Positions 2,922 to 63,585 are shown, counted from the first letter of the stretch. The stretch: 64,000 nucleotides of DNA from Nitrososphaerota archaeon (GCA_011605725.1 JAAOZP010000004.1:124001-188000), one strand, 5' to 3'. The notes: generated by a model from the sequence alone, not told the origin. A program made the numbers and translations.

Positions 2922-2933
2922 AGCGCGCGCGCT
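2922..2933. repeat. GC-alternating palindrome AGCGCGCGCGCT
   Basis: A 12-nt copy located about 60 nt before the sulfur-carrier start and followed by TTTAAAA. The GNAT gene ends 83 nt to its left; no remnant is evident on either side. Confidence 0.7.
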
Positions 2934-2992
2934 TTAAAAGGCTTATGTTTAAATTCAGCTTTAAAGCCAACAACGTAGCCGGCGTAAACCGA

Positions 2993-3199
2993 ATGAGGGT
3001 AAAAGTATTCGTACAGAGGCTTCGCGAAACAAGGGTTATAGACTTAAAGGAGGACAGTAGGATTGAAGACCTTCTTAAAATGCTGAGGATAAGTGCTTCT
3101 GAAGTGGTTCCGGTTAGGAACGGGGTTATAGTTACTGAGAAGGAGCTTCTGAAAGACGGAGACGAGGTTAGGCTTCTAAGTGTTGTATCAGGCGGTTGA
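2993..3199 (+). CDS. MoaD/ThiS-type ubiquitin-like sulfur carrier
   Basis: A small beta-grasp protein of about 68 residues ending in the diagnostic VSGG. The terminal Gly-Gly is adenylated by an E1-like enzyme and thiocarboxylated to carry sulfur. An in-frame ATG at 2945 would add 16 residues unlike the family, so I choose ATG 2993 (MRVKVFV). It ends 3 nt before the tRNA-thiolation gene, so the two are almost certainly co-transcribed and the carrier probably supplies sulfur to that enzyme, as TtuB does for TtuA. Confidence 0.88.
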   Translation: MRVKVFVQRLRETRVIDLKEDSRIEDLLKMLRISASEVVPVRNGVIVTEKELLKDGDEVRLLSVVSGG

Positions 3200-3202
3200 A
3201 GT

Positions 3203-4138
3203 ATGGTTTGTGAAGACTGTGAGAAAAAGGCTGTCTACATTTCTTTAAGCGGGAGAGGACTCTGCAGCAAACATTTTAAAAAGTATTTTGAGACGAAAGT
3301 AATACGGACAATTAAGAAGCATGGCTTAATCGAATACGGGGAAAGAGTCCTCGTAGCCTGCTCAGGAGGTAAGGATAGTACAGCCCTGCTAAGCCTCCTC
3401 TGGAGGCTTATGAGGAATAAGCGTGAAAACATCGCTGCGATAGCTATCGACGAGGGTATAAGCGGCTACAGGGATGTGAAGCTTAAAGGGCTGGTTGAAT
3501 TCTGCAGGGAGAACAATATACCTTTACATACTTACTCGTTTAAGGAGCAGTATGGCTTCACACTAGACGAGGCTGTTAAAATATCCAGGGAGAACAGGCT
3601 TAAAATAAAGCCTTGCTATATTTGCGGAGTCCTAAGAAGGAGCCTGATAAACACTTATGCGAGGAGGCTCGGCTTCTCTAAGGTTGCGACTGGCCACAAT
3701 CTGGACGATGAGGCTCAGACAATCCTCATGAACTATCTCAGGGGAAACCCGTCGCTCCTAGCTAGGCTCGGCCCAAAGACGGGTATTGTTGAAGACGAGG
3801 GCTTCGTCCAGAGGGTTAAACCATTCTACTTCTGCACGGAGAAAGAGGACACTATTTACGCGCTCCTAACCGGTATTGAAGTAGACTTTGTAGAATGCCC
3901 CTACCATGTTGAAAACTACAGGCTTGAGATAAGGGATTTTCTGAACAGGCTTGACTCAACCGTTCCCGGGGTTAAGCATGGCCTCGTAAACAATTTCCTC
4001 AAGATGCTTCCACTTTTAAAGAGGGAATACTCGTCCCGCAGCCTGGGGCACTGCAGAGTCTGCGGAAACCCTGCGGCGCGAGAAGTCTGTAGAGCATGCA
4101 TGATAGTGGAGAAAATAAAGCCATTTCTAAGGGGTTAG
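3203..4138 (+). CDS. TtuA/Ncs6-type tRNA 2-thiolation enzyme
   Basis: An ATP-dependent tRNA thiolase of the TtuA/Ctu1 family (311 residues). It shows an N-terminal Cys cluster (CEDC, then CSKH), the PP-loop SGGKDST at about residue 54, the catalytic CYIC (residues near 140) and a second cysteine after the ATGHNLDDEAQTILMN motif. A C-terminal zinc finger (CRVCGNPA and CRAC) closes the protein. These enzymes thiolate U54 or wobble U34 of tRNAs and often carry a labile Fe-S cluster. The upstream gene is the likely sulfur-carrier partner. U54 thiolation would suit a thermophile, but the target position cannot be read from sequence. Confidence 0.9.
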   Translation: MVCEDCEKKAVYISLSGRGLCSKHFKKYFETKVIRTIKKHGLIEYGERVLVACSGGKDSTALLSLLWRLMRNKRENIAAIAIDEGISGYRDVKLKGLVEFCRENNIPLHTYSFKEQYGFTLDEAVKISRENRLKIKPCYICGVLRRSLINTYARRLGFSKVATGHNLDDEAQTILMNYLRGNPSLLARLGPKTGIVEDEGFVQRVKPFYFCTEKEDTIYALLTGIEVDFVECPYHVENYRLEIRDFLNRLDSTVPGVKHGLVNNFLKMLPLLKREYSSRSLGHCRVCGNPAAREVCRACMIVEKIKPFLRG

Positions 4139-4142
4139 AACC

Positions 4143-4421
4143 ATGAATCATAGTGTAAACAGGTCGCCGTTCATCTTCCCGGAGACCAGGCTTAGGCTCG
4201 CCTCCCTACTAAGAATAAACGGTTTCCACGTGAGAATGCATGGGTACGAGTACCTAGTTTCCTACGGCAACGCGTTCCTATGCCTAATACTTCTCCAACC
4301 CTTTGAGGCCACTGTTTTAATCAGGGTTTTCAAATGGATAGAAGAGTCCAGTATGCTGGTTGAGAAAATAGTCGGACTTGTTAAGACCCTGGACAAGACG
4401 TCTAGAGTAATCACCTATTAG
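4143..4421 (+). CDS. small conserved-looking protein of unknown function
   Basis: A 92-residue protein that I do not recognise. It starts 4 nt after the TtuA-like gene, so it is probably the third gene of the sulfur-carrier/thiolase operon. It has no obvious signal peptide or cysteine motif. The middle part (FLCLILLQPFEATVLIRVF) is hydrophobic but short and mixed, more like a buried core than a membrane helix, and the C terminus is predicted helical. Confidence 0.6.
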   Translation: MNHSVNRSPFIFPETRLRLASLLRINGFHVRMHGYEYLVSYGNAFLCLILLQPFEATVLIRVFKWIEESSMLVEKIVGLVKTLDKTSRVITY

Positions 4422-4462
4422 ACTGGCAAGCTTTTTAAAACCCTTCAGACTCTAGGCCCCGT

Positions 4463-5896
4463 ATGCAGCGCTTAGAGAAGCCGATGCTTCTAGACACCAC
4501 GTTGAGAGAGGGTCTCCAGACTCCCGGAGTATACTTCACGCTTGAGGAGAGAGTCACGATAATGAGGGAGCTCGACAAGTCTGGTATAGATCTTATTGAA
4601 ATAGGGTCCCCCTATACTGGCGAGGGTGAGAGAAGAATCGTGTCTGAGCTGAGCCGGATTGAGACGAGAGCCCTTAAAGCAGCTCATTGTAGAGCTTTAG
4701 AATCGGATGTTGATACTGTTCCAGACGGTGTTGACTGGGTTGCTCTCTACCTATCCCCTGCCGACAGGCATCTGGAAGCGAAGTTTGAAAAAATAGTCGA
4801 CAAGAGAGGGTTCGTTCTTACACAGGTTCCGAAAGCCATCAAGTATGCGAAGAGCAAGGGTTACAGAGTAAGGTATACGGCTGAGGATGCTTTCAGAGCA
4901 GACCCAGTATTCCTCAAACAGGTTGTTGAGAAAGCTATTGAGGCGGGTGCTGACTCCATTAGTCTACCTGATACTTCAGGAGGAGCCTCGCCTACCGATG
5001 TTAGAAGGGTTTACGGAGAGATAAACAGGCTTATAAAGAATAGAAACAACCATAGCCTAATAGAGGCTCATTTTCACAACGACATGGGTATGGCTCTTGC
5101 GAACACCATAGAAGCCTGGATGAGCGGGGCGACGATACTCCACGGATCCATGAACTGGCTTGGAGAACGAGCAGGGATACCGGACACGCTCATCCTAGCT
5201 ACATGGATGAAAATCAGATACGGATATGAGTATGACTTGGCCAGCCTGATGAGACTTGCAGAATACGTGGAGAAAGTTTCGGGGATCAACATACCTCCGA
5301 ACAATCCTGTTTCTGGGAAAAACGTCTTCACGCATACTGCAGGCACCCATCAGAAAGCCGCTTTCAGAGACCCATTAACATACCAGCCTTTTGACGCGAG
5401 CATTGTGGGCAGGGAGAGCAGCTTCGCCCTTGGACCCATGGTTGGAAGCGAGGGTGTTAAGGCAGCCTTGAAGAAGAGGGGTGTTGAAATCGAGAAGCTT
5501 GAGGAGAGCGTGTTCGAAGAGATAAGGGATAGAGTTAAGTCAGCATATCTTCTGCACGGTAGAGGAGCCTCAGCCATGGAGAACATAATTATAGCTGAAG
5601 TGTTGAACAGAACTGGAGTAGCTAGAATAACTCTTCCGGAGAGCATTTCAGCGCAAATACTCATAGATGTTGAGAGCATGGGGGACAAGGATTTCGAGGA
5701 TTTCTGCAGGAAGCTGCTTGCGAGAGACAAAGGGGTTAGAGAGATAGTTGAAATATGGGGCTCATCCTTCGATTACATGGCCATGGTTGACAGGGTTTCA
5801 AGTCTGAAGGAGCTTGACAATATTGTTAACAGTTTTAGAAAGGCTAAGGGAGTTTTGAAAACAGAAACCCTGATAACAGGCAAGAAGATAGAATAA
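4463..5896 (+). CDS. homocitrate/isopropylmalate synthase family enzyme with C-terminal RAM domain
   Basis: A DRE-TIM metallolyase of 477 residues that condenses acetyl-CoA with a 2-oxo acid. It shows LLDTTLREGLQTPG (residues 9-22, catalytic Arg and metal Asp), EAHFHNDMG (His metal ligands) and HTAGTHQKA. The last ~95 residues do not look like the LeuA regulatory domain but like an Lrp/AsnC RAM ligand-binding domain (GSSFDYMAMVDRVSSLKEL, then the pattern KxxGVLKTET). RAM-fused homologues are associated with feedback-controlled homocitrate synthases. With the downstream aconitase-like subunits this favours aminoadipate-type lysine synthesis, though a leucine role is possible. Confidence 0.83.
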   Translation: MQRLEKPMLLDTTLREGLQTPGVYFTLEERVTIMRELDKSGIDLIEIGSPYTGEGERRIVSELSRIETRALKAAHCRALESDVDTVPDGVDWVALYLSPADRHLEAKFEKIVDKRGFVLTQVPKAIKYAKSKGYRVRYTAEDAFRADPVFLKQVVEKAIEAGADSISLPDTSGGASPTDVRRVYGEINRLIKNRNNHSLIEAHFHNDMGMALANTIEAWMSGATILHGSMNWLGERAGIPDTLILATWMKIRYGYEYDLASLMRLAEYVEKVSGINIPPNNPVSGKNVFTHTAGTHQKAAFRDPLTYQPFDASIVGRESSFALGPMVGSEGVKAALKKRGVEIEKLEESVFEEIRDRVKSAYLLHGRGASAMENIIIAEVLNRTGVARITLPESISAQILIDVESMGDKDFEDFCRKLLARDKGVREIVEIWGSSFDYMAMVDRVSSLKELDNIVNSFRKAKGVLKTETLITGKKIE

Positions 5897-5957
5897 TGCT
5901 TAAAACCAGAATCATCGATATTACTGCAAAGGTTTTAAGTAAGTATCTCCATAAGGT

Positions 5958-5969
5958 CTAGCGCGCTAG
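5958..5969. repeat. palindrome CTAGCGCGCTAG
   Basis: A perfect 12-nt palindrome with a shorter (GC)3 core, between the synthase and phosphodiesterase genes, before a T-run. Confidence 0.6.
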
Positions 5970-6015
5970 TTTTTTATGAAAAAGGTTAAATCAAGCATCC
6001 GTCTGGTTTTCCCTT

Positions 6016-6516
6016 ATGCTGATAGGTTTGATAAGCGATACGCATGATCACTTGACGATGATCGAGAGAGCAGTGGCTTTCTTCAACGATAAGAAGGTGA
6101 GCATCGTGCTTCACGCGGGGGATGTTATAAGCCCGTTCACCGCTAGGAAGTTTAAGGACTGCAGGTCGAGGCTCATACTTGTATATGGGAATAACGATGG
6201 CGATAGAGGTAATCTTCAAAGAGCTTTTTCTGAAATAGGTGCTCAGTTCTACTGGCCGGCCGCGATGCTAGAGTTGGATGGAAAGAAGATTCTTGTTCTC
6301 CATGGCGAAGACACGAGACTTATCGAGGATATAGCTAGTCGAGGAATGTTTGACCTCATCGTCTCCGGTCACACGCATGAGCCGCATGTGAGAAGCATTG
6401 GAAATACGCTCTGGGTTAATCCAGGTGAAGCATGCGGCTACTTAACGAACAGGCCGACAGTAGGGCTATACGATTCCATGAAGCATAGAGCAGAAATAAT
6501 AGAGTTAAAGGGTTAA
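6016..6516 (+). CDS. YfcE/MJ0936-type metallophosphoesterase
   Basis: A 166-residue calcineurin-like phosphodiesterase. The binuclear metal motifs are intact: LISDTHDH (residues 5-12), HAGDVI, YGNNDGD, LHGED and SGHTHEPH, and the enzyme ends with the WVNPGEA loop common in the archaeal MJ0936 group. Natural substrates are not established for this group; homologues hydrolyse bis-phosphodiesters in vitro. It has its own AT-rich upstream region, separated from the synthase gene by a spacer with a CTAGCGCGCTAG palindrome. Confidence 0.88.
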   Translation: MLIGLISDTHDHLTMIERAVAFFNDKKVSIVLHAGDVISPFTARKFKDCRSRLILVYGNNDGDRGNLQRAFSEIGAQFYWPAAMLELDGKKILVLHGEDTRLIEDIASRGMFDLIVSGHTHEPHVRSIGNTLWVNPGEACGYLTNRPTVGLYDSMKHRAEIIELKG

Positions 6517-6611
6517 AAATAAAATGCCGTTACAGCGTTTATAAAAATGTTCCACCATTAAGATTAGGGATGGAAGTGGCAGTCAATATTACAAACAGCC
6601 AGAATTCAGCT

Positions 6612-6620
6612 GCGCGCGCT
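6612..6620. repeat. GC element GCGCGCGCT
   Basis: A half-complete copy (5' A replaced by T) between the phosphodiesterase and homoaconitase-like genes. A 29-codon frame crosses it (MEVAVNITNSQNSA) with no recognisable product. Confidence 0.5.
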
Positions 6621-6700
6621 ATTCGTCACGAATACACGGTGGAATCAGGAAACCGTTAGGTTAAATTTTATATATGGAGCACTTATGGAAAGGCTGAGAA

Positions 6701-7963
6701 TTGGGTGAAACACTGATTCAGAAACTATTCAGAAACAAGCTTGGGAAAACGGTAAAGCCTGGGGAAATAGTAGTTGTAGACATCGATCTTGCTTATGCTC
6801 ATGACGGTACCGGCCCGCTCGCCATAGACGCTTTCCGTGAATTAGGCTCCAGCAAGGTGCTGGACCACTCCAGAATAAGGTTCGTCATAGACCATGCTTC
6901 ACCAAGTCCCAATGAGGGTGCTTCAAACCTACAACTTAAGCTCAGAGGCTTCGCAAGGGAGAATAGCATCAAAGTTTATGATGTTGGAGAAGGAATATGC
7001 CACCAAGTAATACCTGAGAACGAGGCTCTGAAACCGGGAATGATGATAGTGGGAGCGGATTCTCATACCGTCACGCTGGGAGCTTTCAGTCTTTTCGCGA
7101 CAGGAATAGGTTCGACAGACTTCGCTGAAGTAATGAGCTCGGGGAAACTGTGGTTCAAGATCCCGGAGGCCATGAAAGTCTCTTTAACCGGGAGATTGAG
7201 CCCGGGCGTTATGTCTAAAGACCTTATCCTGAGGATAATAGGAGACATGGGTGCTGACGGAGCCACCTACATGAGCGTTGAATTCCAAGGGGACGGGGTG
7301 AAAACGCTTTCAATGGCGAGCAGAATGACTGTTTGCAACATGGTTGTTGAAATGGGGGCTAAGAACGGCATCTTCCCGTTAGACGAGGTTACTGCAAGGC
7401 ATGTGGATACGAGCGGTTTAAGAGACAAGAGTATCTTCAAGCCTGATGAAAATGCTGAATACGCCATAAGCCTCAACTACAAGCTTGACGAGCTTGAGCC
7501 AGTAGTGGCGGCACCCCATAACGTTGACAATGTTAAACCAGTTAAGGAGCTTGAAGGACTAGAGGTCAACCAAGTCTTCATTGGCTCATGCACGAATGGT
7601 AGAGAAGAAGATTTTGAAATAGCTGCTAAAATACTTTCGAAGAAGGGTGTAAAGAAAGGAGTTAGATGCATAGCGATACCGGCCTCTAGGAAAGTGTTTC
7701 TAAACCTTCTCAAGAAAAGCATTATAGACAAGCTTGTTTCAGCAGGGTGCACAGTGACTCACAGCACGTGTGGACCATGCTTAGGAGTGCATTTCGGAAT
7801 ACTTGGCTCAGGGGAAGTTGCTGTCTCAACATCCAACAGGAATTTCAGGGGTAGAATGGGCAACCCTGAGTCAAGCATATACTTGGCGAGCCCAGCTACT
7901 GCAGCGGCTTCAGCCGTAGAAGGAGTCATAACAGACCCTAGAAAGCTTTTGGGAGGAGGGTGA
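6701..7963 (+). CDS. homoaconitase / isopropylmalate isomerase large subunit
   Basis: Large subunit (420 residues) of a two-subunit aconitase-type hydrolyase. VGADSHTVTLGA, FIGSCTNGREEDF and HSTCGPCLG carry the conserved residues; the Cys of SCTNG and the two Cys of CGPC bind the 4Fe-4S cluster. The start is TTG at 6701 (MGETLIQKLF). The small subunit follows 4 nt later. The sequence alone does not separate homoaconitase (lysine) from isopropylmalate isomerase (leucine); archaeal versions can act on both. The RAM-domain synthase upstream leans toward homocitrate. Confidence 0.9.
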   Translation: MGETLIQKLFRNKLGKTVKPGEIVVVDIDLAYAHDGTGPLAIDAFRELGSSKVLDHSRIRFVIDHASPSPNEGASNLQLKLRGFARENSIKVYDVGEGICHQVIPENEALKPGMMIVGADSHTVTLGAFSLFATGIGSTDFAEVMSSGKLWFKIPEAMKVSLTGRLSPGVMSKDLILRIIGDMGADGATYMSVEFQGDGVKTLSMASRMTVCNMVVEMGAKNGIFPLDEVTARHVDTSGLRDKSIFKPDENAEYAISLNYKLDELEPVVAAPHNVDNVKPVKELEGLEVNQVFIGSCTNGREEDFEIAAKILSKKGVKKGVRCIAIPASRKVFLNLLKKSIIDKLVSAGCTVTHSTCGPCLGVHFGILGSGEVAVSTSNRNFRGRMGNPESSIYLASPATAAASAVEGVITDPRKLLGGG

Positions 7964-7967: not shown

Positions 7968-8462
7968 ATGATCTTGAAAGGGAGGGTCTGGGTCCTCGGA
8001 GACCATATCAATACTGATGTGATAATACCTGCGAAATACAAGTTTAGGACCGGAGACTTCAAGGAGCTTGCGAAACATGTTTTCGAAGACCTTGACCCCA
8101 CGCTGGCTTCAAAAATATCTAAGGGGGACATCATTATAGCCGGCAGAAATTTTGGAATGGGTTCCAGTAGAGAGCATGCCCCGAGAGTAATTAAGGAGGC
8201 AGGGATATCAGCCATAGTAGCATGCTCCTTCGCCAGAATATTCTTCAGAAACGCGATAAATGTTGGGCTCCCCGTCGTAGAAGTTAAAGACATTAATAAA
8301 AATTTTAAACAGGGGGATATAGCCCTCATAGACTTCGAGAAAGGAGTTGTTAGGAACGAAACTACGGGCGTTGAGCTGAAATTCTCACCATACCCGGAAT
8401 TCATAATGAACATGATGAAGGCAGGAGGGCTTGCTGCATACAGGAAAAGCCTTAAAGCCTAA
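7968..8462 (+). CDS. homoaconitase / isopropylmalate isomerase small subunit
   Basis: Swivelling small subunit (164 residues) that partners the large subunit encoded immediately upstream. It contains GDHINTDVIIPAKY near the N terminus, the substrate-recognition region around residues 22-36, and NFGMGSSREHAPRVIK (about 60-75), which is the LeuD/AcnA signature. It begins with ATG, 4 nt after the large-subunit stop, which indicates translational coupling. Confidence 0.92.
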   Translation: MILKGRVWVLGDHINTDVIIPAKYKFRTGDFKELAKHVFEDLDPTLASKISKGDIIIAGRNFGMGSSREHAPRVIKEAGISAIVACSFARIFFRNAINVGLPVVEVKDINKNFKQGDIALIDFEKGVVRNETTGVELKFSPYPEFIMNMMKAGGLAAYRKSLKA

Positions 8463-8795
8463 ATATGCCTTAAAAACCTGCTTGAAAATCAGAGTCAATG
8501 CTCCTTGACCACTAGTCGAGGAAGCAAGAAATAAATACGATATTCCTAAGCTAAGTAATCATGGCAAATACGAATTCAAACGAGGTTTTAGCGCGCGCGC
8601 CATGTGGATCGTTTACTACTTATACTGGACAATAGTTCGCAGAAAAGCCTTCTTAAGGTATGGAGCAAGAAACGGGGGAGAAAAACGGGTTTAGGACGGA
8701 AAAATTTAGTATATATTTTTAGCTGAAATCTTATTTTAATTCACAATAACTAACCAATAGATTTACAAGCCCGAGTCGCATAGAAAGTTAGTGTC
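8463..8795. other. intergenic stretch with GC palindrome and short open tail
   Basis: This 333-base gap lies between two convergent genes. It contains an AGCGCGCGCGCC element at 8590-8601. From that element a plus-strand frame runs through ATG 8602 to TAG 8692-8694 (about 30 residues, beginning MWIVYYLYWTI, then a basic tail). It could be the C-terminal remnant of a membrane protein, but it is short. AT-rich runs near 8700-8760 (TATATTTTTAG) are unexplained; both neighbouring genes end here, so they would not be their promoters. Confidence 0.4.
8590..8601. repeat. GC-alternating element AGCGCGCGCGCC
   Basis: A copy that ends in CC rather than CT, preceded by TTTT, at the left edge of a possible open tail (8602-8694). 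Confidence 0.6.
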
Positions 8796-10417: not shown

Positions 10418-11246
10418 CCTCCGTTGAAACCCTGTAGCCTGCTCCTACGGCTACAGCATACTCAGGCAGCTTAGGCACTATGGGTTGGACTCCGAAGCTT
10501 GAAAGAGCCTTCTGAATACTTTTCAGGACGGGCGGCAGTTTCGCAACCCTCCCGACTAGGATAACTTTATCCTCGAGCTGAAGCTTAGAGGCAGCTAGAA
10601 ACGTGACTGAAGCCACTACTTCCCCAACCAGGTTAGCTATTCCAGCAGCCAGGTCCTCAGGGCTGGAAGTGTCTCCAACCCTTCCCAGGTTGGAGGCAGT
10701 CATCTCAGGAGAGAGTATACCTATCCCGTTGCCAACTATGTCTCCTACAGTCAGGTCGACTTTTCTAGAGTCTCCCTTCTCAGCCATCTCCACTAGAATG
10801 CTTACGCTCGAGATCCCCAGCATCTTCCTCGCCAGCCCAAGCAGAGTACCCCCGCCGACGCCGGTTCCGCCGACATGTCTTATCCTTTTCCCGTTTTCCC
10901 TAACCTCTATCAGGGCCGTGCCAGTACCCATGCTTACAACCAGGGCTTCATTCAACCCGGTTAAGACTATCCCACCCGTGCCCGCGGCGATGATCTCGTT
11001 AACCTTAACCACCTTCAGTCCGAGAATGCTGTCTGGAAGCTGACTGCTCCTGCCGCCAGCTATCGCTAACACTCCAACATCCTTCAGGGAGCAGCCCATC
11101 ATAACTATAAGCTTCCCGAGGAGCCCTATGGAGGTGGCGAGTGGATCTGAAGACGGCATTTCGCTAACGCCGAGAACCTCCTTGCCTTTCAAGGCAACGG
11201 CCTTCGTCGTCGAACCTCCGATATCTATTCCAACAGCGATCCTCAA
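10389..11246 (-). CDS. type II pantothenate kinase-like ASKHA kinase
   Basis: A 285-residue sugar-kinase/actin-fold protein. The N-terminal phosphate loop VGIDIGGSTTKAV, the central VSMGTGTALIEV and especially GGTGVGGGTLLGLARK match type II (CoaW/eukaryotic) pantothenate kinases, and LVGRVAKLPPVL forms the C-terminal adenosine loop. Such enzymes phosphorylate pantothenate at the start of CoA synthesis. Most archaea instead use pantoate kinase plus phosphopantothenate synthetase, so this gene is notable. The gene just upstream encodes an ECF-type S-component-like membrane protein, possibly the vitamin importer. A BadF-like glycosyl kinase is the main alternative. Confidence 0.72.
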   Translation of the reverse strand: MRIAVGIDIGGSTTKAVALKGKEVLGVSEMPSSDPLATSIGLLGKLIVMMGCSLKDVGVLAIAGGRSSQLPDSILGLKVVKVNEIIAAGTGGIVLTGLNEALVVSMGTGTALIEVRENGKRIRHVGGTGVGGGTLLGLARKMLGISSVSILVEMAEKGDSRKVDLTVGDIVGNGIGILSPEMTASNLGRVGDTSSPEDLAAGIANLVGEVVASVTFLAASKLQLEDKVILVGRVAKLPPVLKSIQKALSSFGVQPIVPKLPEYAVAVGAGYRVSTEDDPNASLIR

Positions 11247-13174: not shown

Positions 13175-15933
13175 ACATTAAGCTTTTCCAAAAGCCTTCT
13201 GTCCTGAACCTCATTGTTCAAGTGCAGCAGTAACTCTTCTTTCGAGTTAACCCCTACCAGCGATTTCACAGCAGCGTCTAAAAGGCTTGAAACAGGCTCG
13301 ACAACAATGCCTTTAGACTCTAAGAGCTCAATTATCTTAAGGTTCTTCATCGACTCGTAGTTGAACACGGGGACGAGAAGCTTCTTCGCAAACCTGTCCG
13401 CTAAAGCCGCATCTATCTTACCCATACCCCTGTGATCCAGTCCTCCGACAGGCCAAACCTCACCCTTAGCCGTTATTGCACCCGTCATTATGACTGTTGG
13501 ATCAACCTCAATACCTGTGAAGGCAGATATCATCGCTACACCTATAGCTAACCCGGCTGAGGGGCCGGAAACAGGAGGATAAGAGAGGCCGGGGCGGAGC
13601 TGAAGCTTCTCCATGCCCTTCGCTGGCGTGACTAGCTCCACGAAAACATCGTGATTCTTAAACCTCCATTCAGAGATGCTGTTTACATATATGAAGGCAT
13701 CCTCAGCACTAGCCTGAATGCTTTCACCATACTCACTTCCAACAACCTTCACAACCCCCTTCCCCTTCGGGTTAGTGACAACCTCTACGACGCTCACGAA
13801 CCCGCTCTGTTCGCCAGCAGCACCTATGGCGACAAGACCATAGGTTTTACCAATCTCAGGGCTTTCAACCCTTACGCTCTTATCAATCATTGTGCGAGCC
13901 TCGCTAACCGACTCCTCCTCTGAAAGGGTTTCCAGCGCTTCTTGAAAGTGAATAGGCCGGAGTGGGTAGTTTGAAGGTGAAACCAGCCTGAGGCTGTCTA
14001 TGAAGCTCCCGGAGGCCTGGTCTACCCCAAGTATCCTGGAAAGCCTCTCCAGATCCTTAGCGTATATTTTCCTTATTTCTTCAACTGGACGACCCTCGTC
14101 AACCGTTTTCACAAGCTGCCTCGCAGCATCCAGCTCCTTAACCCTAAGCCTGTTAGCCTCGTTAATCACGTCAGCAATCCTCCTCGGGCTTAAAGCCTTC
14201 TTCCTAAGTATCTCCAGCACATTGTCCACCGTAGCCTCAGGGCTAAGGACATCCAGATACTTTTTCAAATGGATTCTTATAATCTCCCTCCTCTCCTCAT
14301 CGTTTCTAGGATAGTTGAATTCGAATACGCGTGTAAACCTTTCCAGTAAAGCCCTGTCTAGAACGTCGAGCCTATTCGTGCTGGCTATAACCACAACGCC
14401 TGAAAGAGGTATGAAGCCATCCAGCTCCGTTAAAAGCTGGCTCGTAACCCTGTCTAAGACCGGGTCATGCGTTCCACGTCCAGGTGCAACAGAATCTATC
14501 TCGTCGAAGAAGACTATGGCTGGAGCATTCCTCCTCGCGTCCTCGAAAATATCCCTTATCGTTTTCTCAGGATCACCATACATCCCTTGGATTATTGAGG
14601 GCCCGTTGACAAGATAGAACCAGACATTGTTCTCCCCGGCTATGGCTCTTGCTAGAAGAGTTTTCCCGGTTCCCGGCGGACCGTGGAAAAGAAAGCCTTT
14701 CGGAGGAATATACCTGGCCTTGCTCGCTAACTCAGGGTTTAACGATAAAGAAATCTCTTTGATAATTTCCTCCCTAACGCCTTTAAGCCCTCCAACATCT
14801 TCATACCGCTCTTTCGGCCTAAGCTTAACCACGGATTTCTTAGCGGCTTCAGTCCTAGTGCTTACCGAGTAAGCCTTAACCTTTGAAGCAGCCTCCCTGA
14901 AATCGTTAAGCGTAACAAGCTCACCAGGGTTAATCTGGCTCCCCGGCTCACCCCCATGGAGAAGCCTATTGATAAGCTTCTTCTGAAACGGGGCAGCCCT
15001 GTTGCTAATAACCAGTTGGAAAGCGTTAACTATGTCTGCAGGGGTTATAGCCTGTGTTTCGAAAGACCTTAAACTATCCTCTATCACCGTGAGAATGTCT
15101 TGCGGCGGAAGCCTTACGCCGTGAACCTTACATTGTTTCTCAACTATTTTAAGAAGCATCTGTCTAGACATGTTTTCATCGAGATCTATTGTTCCAGCAA
15201 CCCCCCTTCTGCGAAGAGTATCCACCAGCGACTCATACTCGGTTGTTGAAACCATCACCACAGTACGGTAATCCTTTCTCTGAAGCTCGTCAAACTTTTC
15301 AAGGAGAACTGTTTGAACCCTCGTCTCCTCCATCCCCACCTCCGTTGTGGAGCTGAACTTTTTCGCGAAAGCTTGGAACTCATCTATCAAAACTATACTC
15401 GGATTGTAAAACACGTTGTTGAAGAACTCGCTGAGCCTCTGCGCACTCTGACCATACCACATGGAGTAAACCTGTTCAGGCTTAAGCTTTGCAAGGTTCA
15501 CGAGCAAACCATACTCCAAACCTTTTTCAAAACCCTCCCTTTGAACAACCTCCGCGAAGAAGGTTTTACCAGAGCCGCTTGAACCCTTTACAATGAACAG
15601 TTTAGGCGGCGGTGCTGCTTTGAAAGTCCTCCTTATCTCAGGGTCTCTTAAAACATGGTAGTGGATACTGACTAAGACTTTGAACAGCTCCTCATCCCTA
15701 CCCACCATATCCTCCTTGGAAACCCTTGGAAACATAGGGTTTTTCCTAATCTTTCTAGCTTTTTTCTCGACTATTTTCCTCCTCTTCTCCGGAGGGAGGC
15801 GGAGAAACCTCCACATCCTGTACCTCCAGGAGAAAAGGTTAAGAAGCGGGGAGAATAATAGTCTTAGAAGCGGCTTCTTATACCACCATTCTTCCTCGAA
15901 CTCCCTGTCTTCTTCGAACTCGCTTGAAAACAT
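13171..15933 (-). CDS. Lon-type protease with two tandem AAA+ modules
   Basis: A 920-residue ATP-dependent protease of unusual architecture. After a basic/hydrophobic N terminus, a first AAA+ module has Walker A GSSGSGKT (about 117-124) and Walker B VLIDEF (about 181-186). A second, CDC48/FtsH-like module has GPPGTGKT (418-425), FFDEIDS (476-482) and the ASTNRLDVLDRALLERF sensor/arginine-finger region. A C-terminal Lon (S16) domain has the catalytic Ser793 in GPSAG and Lys840. The loop before Lys840 (GGLDHRGMGK) is longer than usual. Canonical archaeal LonB has one AAA+ module with membrane helices inserted in it; I see no such helices here. The 3' end overlaps the PhoU gene by 4 nt. Confidence 0.88.
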   Translation of the reverse strand: MFSSEFEEDREFEEEWWYKKPLLRLLFSPLLNLFSWRYRMWRFLRLPPEKRRKIVEKKARKIRKNPMFPRVSKEDMVGRDEELFKVLVSIHYHVLRDPEIRRTFKAAPPPKLFIVKGSSGSGKTFFAEVVQREGFEKGLEYGLLVNLAKLKPEQVYSMWYGQSAQRLSEFFNNVFYNPSIVLIDEFQAFAKKFSSTTEVGMEETRVQTVLLEKFDELQRKDYRTVVMVSTTEYESLVDTLRRRGVAGTIDLDENMSRQMLLKIVEKQCKVHGVRLPPQDILTVIEDSLRSFETQAITPADIVNAFQLVISNRAAPFQKKLINRLLHGGEPGSQINPGELVTLNDFREAASKVKAYSVSTRTEAAKKSVVKLRPKERYEDVGGLKGVREEIIKEISLSLNPELASKARYIPPKGFLFHGPPGTGKTLLARAIAGENNVWFYLVNGPSIIQGMYGDPEKTIRDIFEDARRNAPAIVFFDEIDSVAPGRGTHDPVLDRVTSQLLTELDGFIPLSGVVVIASTNRLDVLDRALLERFTRVFEFNYPRNDEERREIIRIHLKKYLDVLSPEATVDNVLEILRKKALSPRRIADVINEANRLRVKELDAARQLVKTVDEGRPVEEIRKIYAKDLERLSRILGVDQASGSFIDSLRLVSPSNYPLRPIHFQEALETLSEEESVSEARTMIDKSVRVESPEIGKTYGLVAIGAAGEQSGFVSVVEVVTNPKGKGVVKVVGSEYGESIQASAEDAFIYVNSISEWRFKNHDVFVELVTPAKGMEKLQLRPGLSYPPVSGPSAGLAIGVAMISAFTGIEVDPTVIMTGAITAKGEVWPVGGLDHRGMGKIDAALADRFAKKLLVPVFNYESMKNLKIIELLESKGIVVEPVSSLLDAAVKSLVGVNSKEELLLHLNNEVQDRRLLEKLNV

Positions 15934-18044: not shown

Positions 18045-18237
18045 AGCATGGTAGTATTGTCTATAACCCGTTTTTAAACATTACCGGAAACTTTTAGATA
18101 AACCGCCCATCTTTACTTCCATTAGTGAAGAGCGTTAGATGTTTTCCGAGCAAACTTGAAGACTTTCCCAACGTGACGAACAGTTTAAAAGCGACGGGAA
18201 AACTTTATTTAACTTAGCGAAGCATTAAAACCTGCGG

Positions 18238-46517: not shown

Positions 46518-46618
46518 AGCCCCTGAACACCACAACCATCCTGCGACTCTTCAAGACTATTATTGTAGGTTCGTCAACGCCTCTTGAAGATTTGAGACCG
46601 GAGAACACAATACTATAG
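46487..46618 (+). pseudogene. short C-terminal gene remnant of unknown family
   Basis: A frame starting inside the AGCGCGCC element gives 43 residues (VFQFLEITLEPLNTTTILRL, then a hydrophobic strand and PLEDLRPENTIL) ending at TAG 46616-46618. It has no start codon of its own, but the amino-acid pattern looks like the end of a real protein. It is placed end to end with the remnant before it. Confidence 0.35.
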
Positions 46619-53347: not shown

Positions 53348-53357
53348 AGCGTGCGCT
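53348..53357. repeat. GC-palindrome variant AGCGTGCGCT at a remnant's 5' edge
   Basis: A near-palindromic copy of the element immediately before the first codon of the damaged radical-SAM fragment at 53359. Confidence 0.5.
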
Positions 53358-53770: not shown

Positions 53771-53780
53771 CCTAGGTAAA
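53745..53780. promoter_or_regulatory. inverted repeat over the TATA box of the AbiE-type operon
   Basis: TTTACCAGGGTTATA (53745-53759) and TATAACCTAGGTAAA (53766-53780) form a 15-nt inverted repeat with 13 matching positions around a TATA-like core, ending at the ATG of the toxin gene. Its position over the promoter is what an autoregulatory operator for a toxin-antitoxin pair would show. Confidence 0.65.
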
Positions 53781-54430
53781 TGATACTCATGTCTCATAAA
53801 ATACCTCTCGCCAAAATATTAAAAGGCAAGCTTTTTCATGTCGCAGAGTTGCAGGATTTAATGATTATTGAGCTTTCTAAAAGCTTCGATTTCATTCTTC
53901 ATGGTGGTACCGCTGTATGGAGAATCTACGGTGGAAAAAGGTTTTCGTATGACGTAGATGTTTATCATAATAATCCGGATGAATTGGCTAGCCATTTTTC
54001 TTCAACAAGATTGTTCAAAGTGCTTAAGTCAAAAATTACACCTTCAAAAGTTCTTTATCTCAAGATAGGGAATGATGCGATCATTGAACTAGAGGCTTCT
54101 CCTACTCCCCGAAGTATTAAAGTTGTCGAAGCAAATTTTTGGCTTGTAGACGGGAGTAGCATGGTTGTGGTTACTCTCCCGCCTGAAAGCCTTTTGAGAG
54201 AGAAAGTGAACGCATTTGTAAACCGTAGGTCTGCTAAAGACCTGTACGACATATTCTATTTACTAGATTTATGTGACAAGAGTAAGATTGTTAAAGACGT
54301 AGAGAAAATAATTCCTCTCTTGAGAACTGAACCTAAGGATTTCGCAGGATTACCGGAGTTAATCCTAGTAGGTAAGTCTCCAAGTTTTGAGACGATTGTG
54401 AGGAAGGTGGAAACTTATGCCACGGGTTAA
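53780..54430 (+). CDS. AbiEii-type nucleotidyltransferase toxin
   Basis: A 216-residue minimal nucleotidyltransferase of the AbiEii/AbiGii toxin family. FILHGGTAVWRIYGGKRFSYDVD (in part) has the G-G-T and D-x-D motifs that bind nucleotide and metal, and PPESLLREKVNAFVNRRSAKDLYDIF (in part) carries the family's K...R-x-x-K-D-x-x-D block. In bacteria AbiEii blocks growth, probably by modifying RNA, and AbiEi represses and neutralises. ATG 53780 or 53789 may start it. It overlaps the antitoxin-like gene by 14 nt. Confidence 0.88.
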   Translation: MILMSHKIPLAKILKGKLFHVAELQDLMIIELSKSFDFILHGGTAVWRIYGGKRFSYDVDVYHNNPDELASHFSSTRLFKVLKSKITPSKVLYLKIGNDAIIELEASPTPRSIKVVEANFWLVDGSSMVVVTLPPESLLREKVNAFVNRRSAKDLYDIFYLLDLCDKSKIVKDVEKIIPLLRTEPKDFAGLPELILVGKSPSFETIVRKVETYATG

Positions 54431-55022
54431 GTATGATTCCTTTCTTAAAAAGCTTCAGACGACCAGCATGTTTACTTTTAAGACTGTTGAAAGCAAAGTT
54501 GGAAAAAGTTATGCAAAGGTATTGCTGCATAACTTAAAGAAAAAGGGGTTAGTGATAGAGTTGGTTAAAGGAGTGTATACTTTTAAAAAATCTCCGTACA
54601 TGTTTGCCAAAGCTATTCCCAAGTCCTATGTAGGCTTAGGAAGCGCTGCTTTTCTACATGGTCTTTGGGAACAAGTATCTAGGATCACAATTCTTTCTCC
54701 TTATGCTTCTCTGAAAGCCAGAGTAGGCGAGAGAGAAATCTCCGGCTTTAAAGTTGTTTTAAGGAAGATTTCTGAAAAAATGTTCTTCGGATACGAGCTC
54801 AAATACATGGAAGAAATAGGAGAATGGATAAGGGTTTCTGACCCTGAGAAAACGCTCATAGACCTTGTCTACTTCAACTACCCATTTAAAAAAGAGATAG
54901 TTCCTAAGCTCTTAGAGATTGTTGACAATGGGAAAGTCATGGAATACATGAGAGTGATGAAGCTGAGAAGGGTTAGAGGGTGGGTGAAAATTCTAAGAGA
55001 AATAAAGCCATACTTAAACTAG
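54417..55022 (+). CDS. AbiEi-type antitoxin/transcriptional repressor
   Basis: A 201-residue partner of the toxin gene. Residues ~8-60 form a winged-helix (MFTFKTVESKVGKSYAKVLLHNLKK, in part), followed by the AbiEi-type dimer/effector domain (SYVGLGSAAFLHGLW, then DPEKTLIDLVYFNYP). In the bacterial system the antitoxin binds an inverted repeat at the promoter, consistent with the operator at 53745-53780. The order here is toxin first, reversed from the usual AbiEi-AbiEii order. Confidence 0.82.
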   Translation: MPRVKYDSFLKKLQTTSMFTFKTVESKVGKSYAKVLLHNLKKKGLVIELVKGVYTFKKSPYMFAKAIPKSYVGLGSAAFLHGLWEQVSRITILSPYASLKARVGEREISGFKVVLRKISEKMFFGYELKYMEEIGEWIRVSDPEKTLIDLVYFNYPFKKEIVPKLLEIVDNGKVMEYMRVMKLRRVRGWVKILREIKPYLN

Positions 55023-55045: not shown

Positions 55046-55196
55046 TCATTCAGGCTCTTCGCTTAAAAAGGGATTCGTTCTTTTCTCCTTGCCGATGCTT
55101 GAAAAAGGTCCGTGACCAGCGTAACCGAAGTATCATCAGCCTATTCCTTATGTAGGGGACTATTTCTTCGAAAGATCCCCGAGAAGGTCGGTAGCG
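55046..55196 (-). pseudogene. metallo-beta-lactamase-fold hydrolase, C-terminal remnant
   Basis: Reading leftward from the GC element at 55193, one frame gives GSFEEIVPYIRNRLMIL and, after a shift, another gives GHGPFSSIGKEKRTNPFLSE and TGA at 55046. Both parts match the end of glyoxalase II-like MBL hydrolases (TDLPGGSYEEL, then YPGHGPxTTIGxEKxxNPF). At least two frameshifts are needed, and the metal-binding N-terminal HxHxDH part is missing. The break at the 5' edge is the GC palindrome. Confidence 0.75.
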
Positions 55197-55202
55197 CGCG
55201 CT
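55193..55202. repeat. GC-alternating palindrome AGCGCGCGCT at the MBL remnant edge
   Basis: A perfect 10-nt core. The MBL remnant begins at it on the left; to the right, 76 nt on, lies the AEC transporter gene. Confidence 0.7.
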
Positions 55203-55277: not shown

Positions 55278-56195
55278 TTGACAAGCCTGGTTGAAACAGT
55301 GCTAGAAATAGTCGTCTCCATTTCCCTAGGGATAGTTCTAAAGCGGCTCTATATTCTCAATGAGTCTATCGGCAGAAAATTGCTGTCACTATCCCTAAAC
55401 ATTCTCCTCCCCCTTATAGTGTTCCACTCCTTTGTGACCGTCAAAATATCTATGAATGAGGCTCTTCTGCCGGTGGTCGGGCTTCTCATAAACCTCTCGC
55501 TCTTAGCCATTGCATATTTAGTGCTGGAGAGTATTGAAATGAGTAATGCTCGAAAAGGAGCTTTCCTACTTGCATGCAGCACTCTGAACATCGGCATAAT
55601 TGGATTGCCTTTCATAAGCCTATTCTTTAATACGGAGGGTGTTGCAACCGCTTCTCTAATAGATATAGGTAACTCCATATACGTTTTCGCCATCGCCTTC
55701 CTAGTCGCCTCACGCTTCAATCCCTCGAAGAGCGAAAGATCTCTGAAAAGCAGCGTTAAAAACCTGTTAGCACAGCCATACATCTTATCTATAATAGCTG
55801 GATCGATTGCCAACCTATTAAGATTAGATTTGCCCCCGCAAGCCAACGAATTAATAACTTTTATATCATTGGTTAACGCTGTAATGATGCTTATTGCAGC
55901 AGGGGTTTTCACCAGGCTTCCAAGGAGAAGCCTTTTACGGGAAATATTCTTATCAATATTTGTAAAAATATTGATTGGAAGCCTAATAGGCTTCGCTTTT
56001 GCAATCTTGCTTCAACTTACTCCGCAAGCAACGGGAGTCATGATAATCGTTGCTTCTCTACCCCCTGCCTTCATGACTCTTGTACATGCTAGTGCTGAAA
56101 ATCTCGACTTAGAGTTTGCCAGCACATTGTTGGGCTCAATGCTCGCCATAGGCATTCCTGTAATAGTTTTCTATGGCTTATTCTTCTCACTCTAA
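55278..56195 (+). CDS. AEC-family (auxin efflux carrier-like) transporter
   Basis: A 305-residue membrane protein with about ten transmembrane helices in two similar halves. The pattern LLSLSLNILLPLIVF, FLLACSTLNIGIIGLPFIS (discontinuous helix with Asn/Gly), PPAFMTLVHA and the terminal helix resemble AEC permeases, which export or import organic acids. TTG 55278 is the likely start. Its TAA overlaps the first base of the AGCGCACGCT variant at 56195. Confidence 0.88.
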   Translation: MTSLVETVLEIVVSISLGIVLKRLYILNESIGRKLLSLSLNILLPLIVFHSFVTVKISMNEALLPVVGLLINLSLLAIAYLVLESIEMSNARKGAFLLACSTLNIGIIGLPFISLFFNTEGVATASLIDIGNSIYVFAIAFLVASRFNPSKSERSLKSSVKNLLAQPYILSIIAGSIANLLRLDLPPQANELITFISLVNAVMMLIAAGVFTRLPRRSLLREIFLSIFVKILIGSLIGFAFAILLQLTPQATGVMIIVASLPPAFMTLVHASAENLDLEFASTLLGSMLAIGIPVIVFYGLFFSL

Positions 56196-56204
56196 GCGCA
56201 CGCT
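56195..56204. repeat. GC-palindrome variant AGCGCACGCT at the AEC gene stop
   Basis: One base differs from the AGCGCGCGCT core. It overlaps the TAA of the AEC transporter gene; an open tail of unknown identity starts within it. Confidence 0.5.
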
Positions 56205-56604
56205 ATCTGCAACATTAGACACTATGAGGACAAGCCGGTTCAGCAGCAGTGGAAGGCCGAGTCAAAAACGTTCTTAAGGCTTTTTATAAATCTTGAAGGC
56301 AGGGTTCTTAACTGAAGCTGGAATTGGAATCCGCCCGATTCCTAACCATCATAAGTTTTAGCGCGAGCCAACATATAATTATTCACGCTTCTGAGTAAAA
56401 ATTTTCCGCATTTCCAAAATACTATATGGGTGCTTAAAAATACTTGATTAGCACGTGCTTTCGGCTGGGTGAGATAATAATCGTGTCTTTCAATCTTTCC
56501 TTTGGATTGACCTCAAGATGGATAAGCGCGCGCCGTCTTTCAGATTTCCTTGTTGAACCTTCTTTTGAAAGAGTTAAGTATCAGTACAGGTGTTAAGTAA
56601 TTGT
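56199..56604 (+). other. intergenic stretch with two short gene-tail remnants
   Basis: From the AGCGCACGCT element a start-less plus frame reads AICNIRHYEDKPVQQQWKAE then RLFINLEGRVLN and stops near 56319. From AGCGCGCGCC (56525-56534) another reads RRLSDFLVEPSFERVKYQYR and stops at 56596. Both look like C-terminal tails of real proteins of unknown identity. A further variant, AGCGCGAGC, lies at 56360. Between them the DNA is AT-rich with no other gene that I see. Confidence 0.35.
56525..56534. repeat. GC element AGCGCGCGCC before a short open tail
   Basis: A copy at the left edge of a 20-residue open tail that ends before the isomerase-like gene. Confidence 0.5.
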
Positions 56605-57888: not shown

Positions 57889-58194
57889 AGTGATGTCGAA
57901 ACAGGTGTAAGGAGAAGGGTCTCGGCAATCTTTCAGCTGATAGAGACACGGCTCTCCATAGCTTCATGAAGCTTGGTTTCTGGTCTAAGCACCCTTGTTC
58001 CCTGCGAGAGAATATGGAAGAAGCAGTTAAGGGCGATTTGGTCAACGATGCTGAAACGGGGAAGAGGTTTAACAGGATGCGGAAACGATACTTAAAAGTT
58101 GAGAAGCAATGTTTTCCAACTTTAGGCATGACAAGTTTAGCGCGCGCTGACTCCAGATTTAAAAGCTTTAACTTTCCATCAGGAGTTTAGAAGC
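57889..58194. other. intergenic stretch with a GC palindrome
   Basis: This 306-nt gap contains AGCGCGCGCT at 58139-58148. A 74-codon frame from 57966 crosses it but has a biased, unconvincing composition; I cannot support a gene. The stretch up to 58138 could be a decayed gene. The last 45 nt contain the promoter region of the oxidoreductase gene (TTTAAAAGC). Confidence 0.35.
58139..58148. repeat. GC-alternating palindrome AGCGCGCGCT
   Basis: A perfect core preceded by TTT, 47 nt before the oxidoreductase ATG. Confidence 0.65.
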
Positions 58195-59319
58195 ATGAGT
58201 CCACTTGGGAAGGTGCATGTAGGAGTAGTAGGCGGAGGCTTCGGGTCTGTTTTCAAGTGGCATAGTCATCCGAATTGCATTGTGGAAGCAGTATGCGACC
58301 CTGTTCCTGAAAAACGTAAGCGTTTAATGCAGGTTTACAATTGTGAAAAGTCGTATGAGAATCTTGAGGAGCTTTTGCAGGACCGGAGGGTTGAAGCGGT
58401 CGCCCTCTTCACTCCCGCGCCCCTTCACGCTGAGCATGCTGTCGAGTGTTTGAAATCTGGGAAACACGTCTTATGCGCGGTTCCAGCCTGCATGACGCTG
58501 GAGGAGGCAAGTATGCTTCTCGAGACTGTTAGGGAGACAGGTTTGAACTACATGATGGCTGAGACTAGCTGGTATCATCAGGCAGTAATCTCGGCGAGAA
58601 AATGGTTTAAAGAGGGAAGGTTTGGCAGAATATTCTACACGGAGGCTGAATACTATCATCCAGGATTAGCGTCGCTATTCTTTGACAATAATGGCAATAA
58701 GACTTGGCGCTACGGGTTCCCCCCTATGCTTTACCCTACGCACTGCACTGCATACCTAGTTGGAGTTACTGGAGAGAAGATGGTTAGGGTTTCCTGCGTA
58801 GGATGGGGAGACGATTCTCCAATTCTCAAGAATAATGCTTACAACAATCCTTTCTGGAACGAGACCGCGTTTTTCATAACAGATAAGGGTAATGCCTTCA
58901 GGGTGGCCGTCTACTGGAACGCTCCCGTCGGCCCTTGTGAAAGAGGACAGTGGATTGGAGAGAAAATGAGTTTCTTCGAGCCTCACCCTAATGGCACTAA
59001 ACATATTGTCTGGAAGGCTGGAAGCAGCCCTTTAGACTTGCCGCAGATGGTAAGCTATGAACAGGCAGAATGGTGGAGGACAGATATTCTTCCAGAGTCT
59101 TTGCGTCATCCGAGTGGACACGATAATTCTCATAACTTCATAATTCATGAGTTCATTCAGTCCATTGTCGAGAAGCGTTCTCCAGCTGTCGGAGTCTACG
59201 AGGCTCTGGCCATGACTATTCCAGGCATAATTGCTCACCAATCGGCCTTAAGAGGAGGAGAACAGATGAGGATCCCAAGGCTTGAGCCTGGGAGCGCGCG
59301 CTTTCACGCCAGTTTCTAA
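58195..59319 (+). CDS. Gfo/Idh/MocA-family oxidoreductase
   Basis: A 374-residue NAD(P)-dependent sugar oxidoreductase. VGVVGGGFGSVFKWHSHP begins the Rossmann fold, FTPAPLHAEHAVECLKSGKHV follows, with the AVPAC segment in the place of the usual EKP motif (C replaces K), and the C-terminal alpha/beta domain has HDNSHNFIIHEFI. Loss of the catalytic lysine position suggests altered chemistry. The last six residues lie beyond an AGCGCGCGCT element (59293-59302), so the original C terminus may have been cut and extended. Confidence 0.82.
   Translation: MSPLGKVHVGVVGGGFGSVFKWHSHPNCIVEAVCDPVPEKRKRLMQVYNCEKSYENLEELLQDRRVEAVALFTPAPLHAEHAVECLKSGKHVLCAVPACMTLEEASMLLETVRETGLNYMMAETSWYHQAVISARKWFKEGRFGRIFYTEAEYYHPGLASLFFDNNGNKTWRYGFPPMLYPTHCTAYLVGVTGEKMVRVSCVGWGDDSPILKNNAYNNPFWNETAFFITDKGNAFRVAVYWNAPVGPCERGQWIGEKMSFFEPHPNGTKHIVWKAGSSPLDLPQMVSYEQAEWWRTDILPESLRHPSGHDNSHNFIIHEFIQSIVEKRSPAVGVYEALAMTIPGIIAHQSALRGGEQMRIPRLEPGSARFHASF
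59293..59302. repeat. GC-alternating palindrome AGCGCGCGCT inside the 3' end of an oxidoreductase gene
   Basis: A perfect 10-nt core within the last codons (PGSAR) of the oxidoreductase frame; one of few copies that lies in coding DNA. Confidence 0.6.
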
Positions 59320-62325: not shown

Positions 62326-62763
62326 TTAGAGCTTTCTCTTTTTTGCAACAATATGGAGGTGACCCCCGTAGCCCACTATGGATGGCTCCTCGCAAAGCAT
62401 CAACTCCAGCTCCAGGAGTTTCTCAGCCTTCTCCTCATTCTGGAGAAGCATCTCTGTTTCAGGCCTGGAGACGTAGACCACGGTCTTGCCGACTATCTTA
62501 ATGACTTCTAAACCGTTCTTCTCAAAAAGGCTTTTAAGGTCGGATGGTGAAAAAGCCCAACAGTAGAAACCCCACGCTTCAGCGAAAAACCTTCTCTCCT
62601 TAAGGACTTTGAAGGCCTCCTCCGGCCCCTTACGGACAAGCATACTCCTTACAATGTTGAAGAGGCTGTCGACCCCGGCAGCAATGAAGCATCCGGGTTT
62701 AAGAACCCTAGCCAGTTCCCCGACTGCCTTATCAGGATTACTGCAGTAAGATATTGGGTCTCC
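62326..62763 (-). pseudogene. SAM-dependent methyltransferase, 5'-truncated
   Basis: A methyltransferase C-terminal half. The frame enters with GDPISYCSNPDKAVGELARV, LKPGCFIAAGVDSLFNIV and continues from the nominal ATG 62643 (MLVRKGPEEAF) to SPSDLKSLFEKNGLEVIK and the end at 62326. The SAM-binding N-terminal motifs (VLDVGCGxG) are missing. The break lies near CCTAGG (62763-62768) where another truncated gene starts on the other strand. A shorter version could still be translated from 62643. Confidence 0.7.
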
Positions 62764-62886
62764 CTAGGCGAGGGTAAAGCGCTACTGATCTTCGGCCCGC
62801 ATTATGCAAGCCTTGGAAGCATAGAGTACTTCTTGAAGAGAAGAATCGATGTTGAGGAAATGATGAGCAGGTTCCCACTTGCATGA
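62764..62886 (+). pseudogene. short gene-tail remnant of unknown family
   Basis: A start-less frame reads GEGKALLIFGPHYASLGSIE then YFLKRRIDVEEMMSRFPLA and ends at TGA 62884-62886. It abuts the truncated methyltransferase in the opposite orientation at a CCTAGG hexamer. It is probably the C terminus of a lost plus-strand gene. Confidence 0.45.
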
Positions 62887-63049
62887 TTTTGCCATAGTCA
62901 AAACTGGTAGGAAAGTTTAGATTTGACAAACTATTGCGCTGCTATTGTCAATTAATTAGGCATTATACATCCGTCTAGGACAGTTTTTATCCTAAGCCGC
63001 TCTCGCTTCATCGATAAAGATATCTAGTTTTCAGCTTTAGATAAGACTT

Positions 63050-63059
63050 CTCGCGCGAG
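63050..63059. repeat. palindrome CTCGCGCGAG
   Basis: A related CG-alternating palindrome, 59 nt before the 63118 gene, in register shift from the usual core. Confidence 0.4.
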
Positions 63060-63117
63060 CGCCGCTGATAAACCTGTTGCGTTTTTAAGCAGGCAAGTTC
63101 TCTACATCCTGAGCCTA

Positions 63118-63528
63118 ATGGCTGTCGAGAAGCTTTCACTAAGATTGGCGAGGACGATCTTCTATCTTAAAGGGTTTGTCTGGCTCCTCAAGAGGAGAAG
63201 AGCATACTCGATGCAAGACGTCTTAAACCTCTTCTACATGGATTTTCTAAAAATAGATGATAAGCATATCGAAGTCGTAAAGCTCGATGAGAACGAGCTC
63301 ATAACTAGGTGTAGCAATCCATGCCCTATTTTAGAGCTTGCTAAGCGTCTCAATCTAGACACTAAGTATGTGTGTAAAGAGGTTTCTGAACCAGTCTGCA
63401 AATTCGTATTGAACAAGCTTAATCCAAGACTGGTGTTTGAGAGAAACTATGAACACATAAGACCACATGTTGAGAGCTGCGAGGAACATATATATTGGAG
63501 ACGGGGTGAGAAACAAAGCGCACGCTAA
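63118..63528 (+). CDS. cysteine-containing protein of unknown function, 3' end formed by a GC element
   Basis: A 136-residue protein. The first half is helical/basic; the second half has RCSNPCPILELAKRLNLDTK with cysteines, YVCKEVSEPVCKFVLNKLNP and FERNYEHIRPHVESCEEHIY, a pattern seen in archaeal and bacterial hypothetical proteins with several conserved Cys that may bind metal. The last residues (SAR) and the TAA stop lie in AGCGCACGCTAA (63517-63528), so the native C terminus may be missing by a few residues. There is no frameshift. Confidence 0.6.
   Translation: MAVEKLSLRLARTIFYLKGFVWLLKRRRAYSMQDVLNLFYMDFLKIDDKHIEVVKLDENELITRCSNPCPILELAKRLNLDTKYVCKEVSEPVCKFVLNKLNPRLVFERNYEHIRPHVESCEEHIYWRRGEKQSAR
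63517..63526. repeat. GC-palindrome variant AGCGCACGCT forming the end of a gene
   Basis: One base off the core. It supplies the last codons (Ser-Ala-Arg) and, with the following AA, the TAA stop of the 63118 gene. Confidence 0.5.
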
Positions 63529-63575
63529 ACAAAGAATCATTGAGAAAGCACTAGGCTAAGTCAGAACTGATCCGG

Positions 63576-63585
63576 AGCGCGCGCT
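63576..63585. repeat. GC-alternating palindrome AGCGCGCGCT
   Basis: A perfect core followed by AAACTAG, 50 nt to the right of the previous variant, in the gap between the 63118 gene and vapB. Confidence 0.65.

Follow-up and report, generated by a model that had tools for sequence, protein, structure and literature searches.

A(GC)nT palindromes in a genus of hot-spring archaea as very probable scars of end joining

It is not settled how Ku-less archaea mend chromosome breaks. In V(D)J joining, the N additions made by TdT vary in sequence, and the P nucleotides are palindromic and repeat the coding end. By our comparison, the closest described mechanism is the PriSL end joining of Saccharolobus islandicus, a Ku-less form of break repair that involves terminal transfer to 3' ends and annealing on 2–4 GC pairs, and that yields mostly 1–2 bp indels (PMC12019639). 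Interstitial telomeric repeats have been recognised by comparing empty orthologous loci (PMC7215372, PMC8537989), as were the seams described below, and the cyanobacterial palindrome HIP1 (GCGATCGC) has been linked to DNA methyltransferases (PMC4390886).

Here we analyze a 64,000-nt window (G000:C4:124001-188000) of an archaeal draft genome of 2.23 Mb, designated G000, in which short palindromes of the form A(GC)nT are scattered along the DNA. These palindromes are very probably scars of end joining, and the A(GC)nT seam, as we call it, resembles the signature of a not yet characterised route by which chromosome breaks are rejoined, of which the seams give a natural record. The genus consists of hot-spring archaea (Brockarchaeota), and the sister genomes include the Candidatus Brockarchaeota MAGs DRTY-6.bins.80 and GD2_1, plus SKW236 and S1_Bin_MAXBIN. 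The analysis covers about 490 kb of G000 and some 0.8 Mb of its relatives, all of which are draft MAGs.

Abundance, form and distribution of the A(GC)nT motif

The first-pass annotation of the window had described the motif as far above chance, and the counts bear this out. Across the whole G000 draft genome, AGCGCGCGCT is present in 88 exact copies, compared to 2 copies of the reversed control. In 455 kb of this genome, A(GC)4T was seen 48 times against a second-order Markov expectation of 0.21, with corresponding values of 25 versus 5.2 for A(GC)3T, 6 versus 0.01 for A(GC)5T and 2 versus 0 for A(GC)6T. The enrichment is limited to the A(GC)nT form, where n is mostly 4 and otherwise 3, 5 or 6; the alternating forms T(CG)nA, T(GC)nA and A(CG)nT occur in the same 455 kb at counts near expectation. 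Within the window, 15 matches with at most one mismatch were found, whereas shuffled sequences averaged 1.2 and gave at most 5, with none reaching 15. The sites in the window, none of which is assigned a strand, are as follows:

2922-2933: A(GC)5T seam; no relative mapped at this site
8590-8600: A(GC)n run without the closing T, a one-sided form
40529-40542: A(GC)6T seam adjoining the start of an ABC-permease ORF (40018-40527, minus strand), the match of which starts at profile position 21
46295-46304: A(GC)4T seam; the segment around it (46016-46827) has a different length and content in every relative
53348-53357: decayed seam AGCGTGCGCT; right-side homology to G007 and G002 starts 3–7 bp off
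55193-55202: A(GC)4T seam; the left and right flanks match two different G007 contigs
56195-56204: decayed seam AGCGCACGCT; left-side homology to G007 stops 2 bp away
56525-56534: A(GC)4C, a one-sided form; right-side homology to G003 starts 26 bp away
58139-58148: A(GC)4T seam replacing 891 bp of G003, including an ORF of about 225 codons
59293-59302: A(GC)4T seam replacing 65–123 bp, a loss that took the stop codon of a GFO/IDH-type gene (58195-59319)
63517-63526: decayed seam AGCGCACGCT, the left edge of a 49-bp scrap
63527-63575: the 49-bp scrap, with a seam on each side
63576-63585: A(GC)4T seam, the right edge of the scrap

All five exact cores that the first pass had reported (46295, 55193, 58139, 59293 and 63576) are present, as are its two longer versions, at 2922 and 40529. 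The cores of its variants are present as well, but the one at 46482 (AGCGCGCCG) is a weaker match to the motif. The region from 8.6 to 24.5 kb, described as free of the motif, is indeed empty, but the gap is longer, with no copy of n≥4 or with one mismatch between 8.6 and 40.5 kb of the window. Most window sites have homology on one flank only. An AbiEii/AbiEi-like toxin-antitoxin pair (53780-55022) lies between the seams at 53348 and 55193, and the stretch at 18234-18344 appears tRNA-like by eye, with a GGTTCAAATCCCGCCCCCGGC end and perhaps an intron, yet no tRNA was reported by ARAGORN anywhere in the window.

The base just outside the core is T on the left and A on the right in 58% of cases, compared to a background of 29% (P=2e-10), and no flanking conservation was found beyond that single outer base. 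The TTT...AAA flanks that had been proposed are thus reduced to the T just before and the A just after the core. The exact n≥4 sites of G000 mostly fall outside ORFs (45/58). Copies with one mismatch in the core mostly carry C-to-T or G-to-A changes at CpG, the pattern that deamination should leave in ageing scars. The possibility that all n=3 copies are scars was rejected: some of these sit in place in three species (L116:6024 / L134:2312 / L135:7036; L136:395 / L137:1292 / L138:2079) and look like chance coding matches. Separately, a second palindrome of 8 bp, TGTCGACA, was counted 20 times in 455 kb of G000 versus 2.1 expected (for example, at position 35658 of the window and in five copies in L023); it is rarer in the sister genomes and shows no obvious tie to the seams.

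Within the genus, exact copies number 88 in G000, 32 in G004, 18 in G003, 6 in G006 and 3 in G005, with none in G001, G002 or G007, and most other genomes of the order and the phylum contain 0–1. Scanning 398 genomes of the phylum for TAGCGCGCGCT likewise places the motif mainly in this genus. Two distant genomes exceeded the control for TAGCGCGCGCT, G300 (8 versus 0) and G395 (7 versus 0), with 39–46% GC around the sites (L153-L165); these genomes may show the same phenomenon at a low level, and this weak enrichment hints that the seams may not be confined to the genus. Family f28 also exceeds the control, and its inspected sites are mostly in GC-rich sequence. In G000, the copies are clustered, for example, at C1 24–31 kb, C4 48–68 kb and C4 170–206 kb, and these clusters are mosaics, the segments of which match different places in the relatives.

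DNA missing or captured at the seams

The sister genomes are about 75–90% identical, with G003 and G005 forming a closer pair (95–98%). In the first locus set, 1 of 123 G000 sites was located inside an alignment to a relative, compared to 14.3 +/- 3.3 for controls matched by locus and coding status. Of the exact n≥4 sites, 56 have homology on at least one flank; a deletion was observed at 8 of these, versus 9 of 607 controls consisting of random and displaced positions (Fisher P=2e-5), whereas only 2 were contiguous in a relative, versus 192 of the 607 controls (Fisher P=8e-7). A further 34 of 90 exact sites have no homologous flank in the DNA read. At sites whose two flanks could be mapped to a single relative, the motif sits exactly where DNA is missing, with 37–2452 bp lost, and such losses occurred independently in G000, G003, G004, G006 and the G003/G005 ancestor. 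In addition to the two in the window, the following were resolved:

L115:4001: replaces 37 bp of G005
L122:4267: replaces 162 bp of G004
L151:2390: replaces 839 bp of G004
L144:2845: replaces 1652 bp of G006
L129:4001: replaces 1718 bp of G004
L126:6704: replaces 1724 bp of G004
L072:3108: replaces 783–824 bp
L081:11093: replaces 950 bp
L091:2307: replaces 2452 bp
L057:14425: replaces 227 bp

At L129, L126, L151 and L122, homology reaches within 0–2 bp of the motif on both sides. The orthologous loci that lack the motif hold the missing DNA, often a complete gene, and some breakpoints interrupt genes of which a relative has the unbroken version; at the resolved sites, the motif was not found at the ancestral ends of the deleted segments. 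The suggestion of the first-pass annotation that the motif is a breakpoint mark is therefore upheld: the motif lies exactly at the join, its frequency is far above expectation, and conserved copies beside unbroken sequence occur almost exclusively between the members of the G003/G005 pair. Of about 7 resolved left ends, 4 have lost sequence that starts with A or AG, which is not enough to claim microhomology.

One locus reveals the direction of change. In G004, L147:5053-7751 contains two intact ORFs of 314 and 575 codons, the first of which encodes a GH5 cellulase. In the coordinates of this locus, positions 5530-6368 are missing from G000, 4872-6589 from G006 and 6042-7765 from G003. Each of the three species has its own deletion, overlapping those of the others and closed by AGCGCGCGCT, so that the change is loss in three lineages rather than gain in one. 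The exact copies that are contiguous in a relative are common, in changed form, to the sister pair G003/G005, as expected of inherited scars: the two genomes share copies that have since been altered, including one scar that differs by one GC unit.

Seams also flank short captured segments. Seam-to-seam distances of 40–200 bp were observed 31 times, compared to 9.6 for random placement, about a threefold excess, and several of the segments between seams are copies of DNA from elsewhere. For example, the 63-bp stretch L023:5764-5826, which runs from seam to seam, shares 95% identity with the seamless L023:3019-3081, and L019:15894-16007 matches L015:1818-1933 at 78%. Matches at other places were also found for parts of L005:10192-10261, L005:15697-15752 and L020:4645-4852. 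In G003/G005, 704 bp bounded by a seam at either end match the unseamed G000 segment L016:18174-18876.

Many diverged short copies of one stretch, some abutting a seam, are spread across the seam-rich regions. Judged from its translation, this stretch resembles the C-terminus of phosphoenolpyruvate synthase, and the end of this one gene seems to have supplied scraps preferentially. The phosphoenolpyruvate synthase-like copies are located at:

L013:18103-18464; L015:9735-9973 and 10829-11034; L014:19700-19829
L016:7582-7662, 8147-8246, 13862-13960 and 16780-16910
the G003/G004 loci L089, L088, L087 and L059

A proposed mechanism of joining and its alternatives

The flanks of the resolved seams were apart in the ancestor, the filler is absent from the ancestral ends, and fragments were occasionally captured. 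Joins of once-separate sequences with DNA loss and occasional scraps have the anatomy of end joining with filler, and the deletion joins support the option of an end-joining product with templated GC addition that was listed in the first-pass annotation. The observations as a whole are probably best explained by Ku-less end joining via self-complementary A(GC)m tails. The symmetry and composition of A(GC)nT suggest a tail of A followed by GCGC on each 3' end, and we are inclined to favor such a two-tail mechanism, with putative tails on both 3' ends. The process would start from a chromosome break, from two resected ends, or from one end and a stray fragment, and each 3' end would gain a short tail, A first and then GCGC. 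Being self-complementary in any even register, any two A(GC)m tails could anneal, and fill-in and ligation would put A(GC)nT where DNA had been lost, the length and register of the tails determining n, which ranges from 3 to 6 and is mostly 4. A stray fragment caught between two ends would persist as a scrap flanked by two seams. The forms without the closing T (window position 8590, L016:867 and L016:4850) fit a tail on one end only, and later slippage may account for part of the range of n, as in the one-unit difference between G003 and G005.

The tails would be added by PriSL, through terminal transfer and annealing on 2–4 GC pairs, or by another terminal transferase. The PriSL version would require only a preference for A and then GC, and the replicative primase PriSL is a possible, if rather doubtful, candidate for the enzyme. 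Against it, primase is expected in the seamless G007 too, and the lack of seams in G007 and most other archaea calls for a species-specific factor or an enzyme variant. The near-fixed sequence of the seams is unusual for untemplated addition and counts against the tail model, and the one-sided homology of most window sites is a further point against this explanation. In keeping with a Ku-less pathway, Ku (PF02735) was detected in none of 10 genomes of the genus and order, although the profile did find it in the control, Bacillus subtilis. The reverse transcriptase profile RVT_1 (PF00078), which matched three control genomes, and the PolX thumb domain (PF14791) each had no match in 12 genomes, those searched with RVT_1 being of the genus and order. 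With these profiles absent, Ku, reverse transcriptase and the PolX thumb domain were rejected as the joining enzyme. It is plausible, without our considering it probable, that some Brockarchaeota own a dedicated Ku-independent and RT-independent form of end joining with fixed, self-complementary A(GC)m caps through which any two ends could pair, and which stitches in stray fragments and has reshaped whole genome regions.

Among the alternatives, an unknown transposable element with AGCGC/GCGCT ends, causing adjacent deletions and leaving fused ends upon excision, would account for a palindromic scar of near-fixed sequence that recurs in several species. We consider it unlikely, given that sharing stops after one flanking base, leaving no remnant of a longer inverted repeat, that the resolved sites include neither a contiguous empty site in a relative nor an insertion without loss, that n varies from 3 to 6, and that scraps were captured with a seam on each side; a parent element with matching terminal repeats did not turn up in the DNA read. 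The near-constant sequence could also come from fixed tails copied from an RNA template, as when telomerase heals breaks and leaves interstitial telomeric repeats, and mammals provide the precedent of telomeric repeats at breaks with deletions and scraps (PMC7215372). The lack of an RVT_1 match in 12 genomes, drafts that may miss genes, makes this version quite improbable. A site-specific recombinase or cassette core joining segments at a 10-bp palindrome would suit the symmetrical core and the division of mosaic clusters into segments by seams, but the motif is missing from the ancestral ends of the segments that were deleted, on which ground gene cassettes and recombinases were rejected, and the breaks inside genes, the irregular spacing and the variable n likewise make this reading very unlikely.

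The regulatory palindrome listed in the first pass fares no better than the recombinase core site listed beside it, the ancestral sites being free of the motif. A regulatory or structural palindrome (a Z-DNA former or a methylation or binding site) or a fragile site would be palindromic, alternating in G and C and mostly outside ORFs, as the motif is, but the motif is not kept in place among species, is missing from the sequence before deletion and has no enriched counterpart among the other alternating forms, which renders this origin highly improbable. Every genome compared is a draft MAG, and an assembly or library artefact therefore has to be considered; however, seams are present in independent MAGs from several projects, copies inherited with later changes are common to G003 and G005, CpG decay is evident, and the flanks run on into genes, so that an artefact is hardly credible.

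Comparison with known joining systems

One genome alone offers a record of about a hundred apparent joins, all labelled by the same seam; the seam recurs in several species, and the ancestral states are at hand. The seams make the chemistry of the joint testable, in particular, which enzyme adds A and then GC repeats, and they make deletions countable and datable from sequence alone. If the primase is responsible, the Saccharolobus model extends to genome-reshaping events.

Among the known systems, HIP1 (PMC4390886) is likewise a short GC-rich palindrome strongly over-represented in a genome, but the present motif marks deletions and is missing from ancestral sites; a HIP1-like iterated palindrome was rejected on the contrast in contiguity (2/56 exact sites versus 192/607 controls). 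V(D)J joining also leaves short additions, the N and P nucleotides, at its joins, whereas the seam is near-constant and unrelated to its flanks, and no PolX thumb domain was found. Bacterial and Methanocella-type Ku/LigD NHEJ shares the joining of ends with small additions and losses, but Ku is absent from the 10 genomes of the genus and order. Mammalian interstitial telomeric repeats (PMC7215372, PMC8537989) come closer in their near-fixed sequence at repaired breaks, accompanied by deletions, scraps and rearrangements; unlike the seams, they are made by telomerase and are not palindromic, and this genus lacks an RVT_1 match. The products reported for Saccharolobus PriSL (PMC12019639) do not contain an A(GC)nT seam, and large deletions are not the rule among them. 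Nevertheless, Prim-Pol-promoted MMEJ in Saccharolobus (PMC12019639) is, like the joining described here, archaeal and Ku-less, and the further parallel in terminal transfer, annealing and fill-in is one that we propose.
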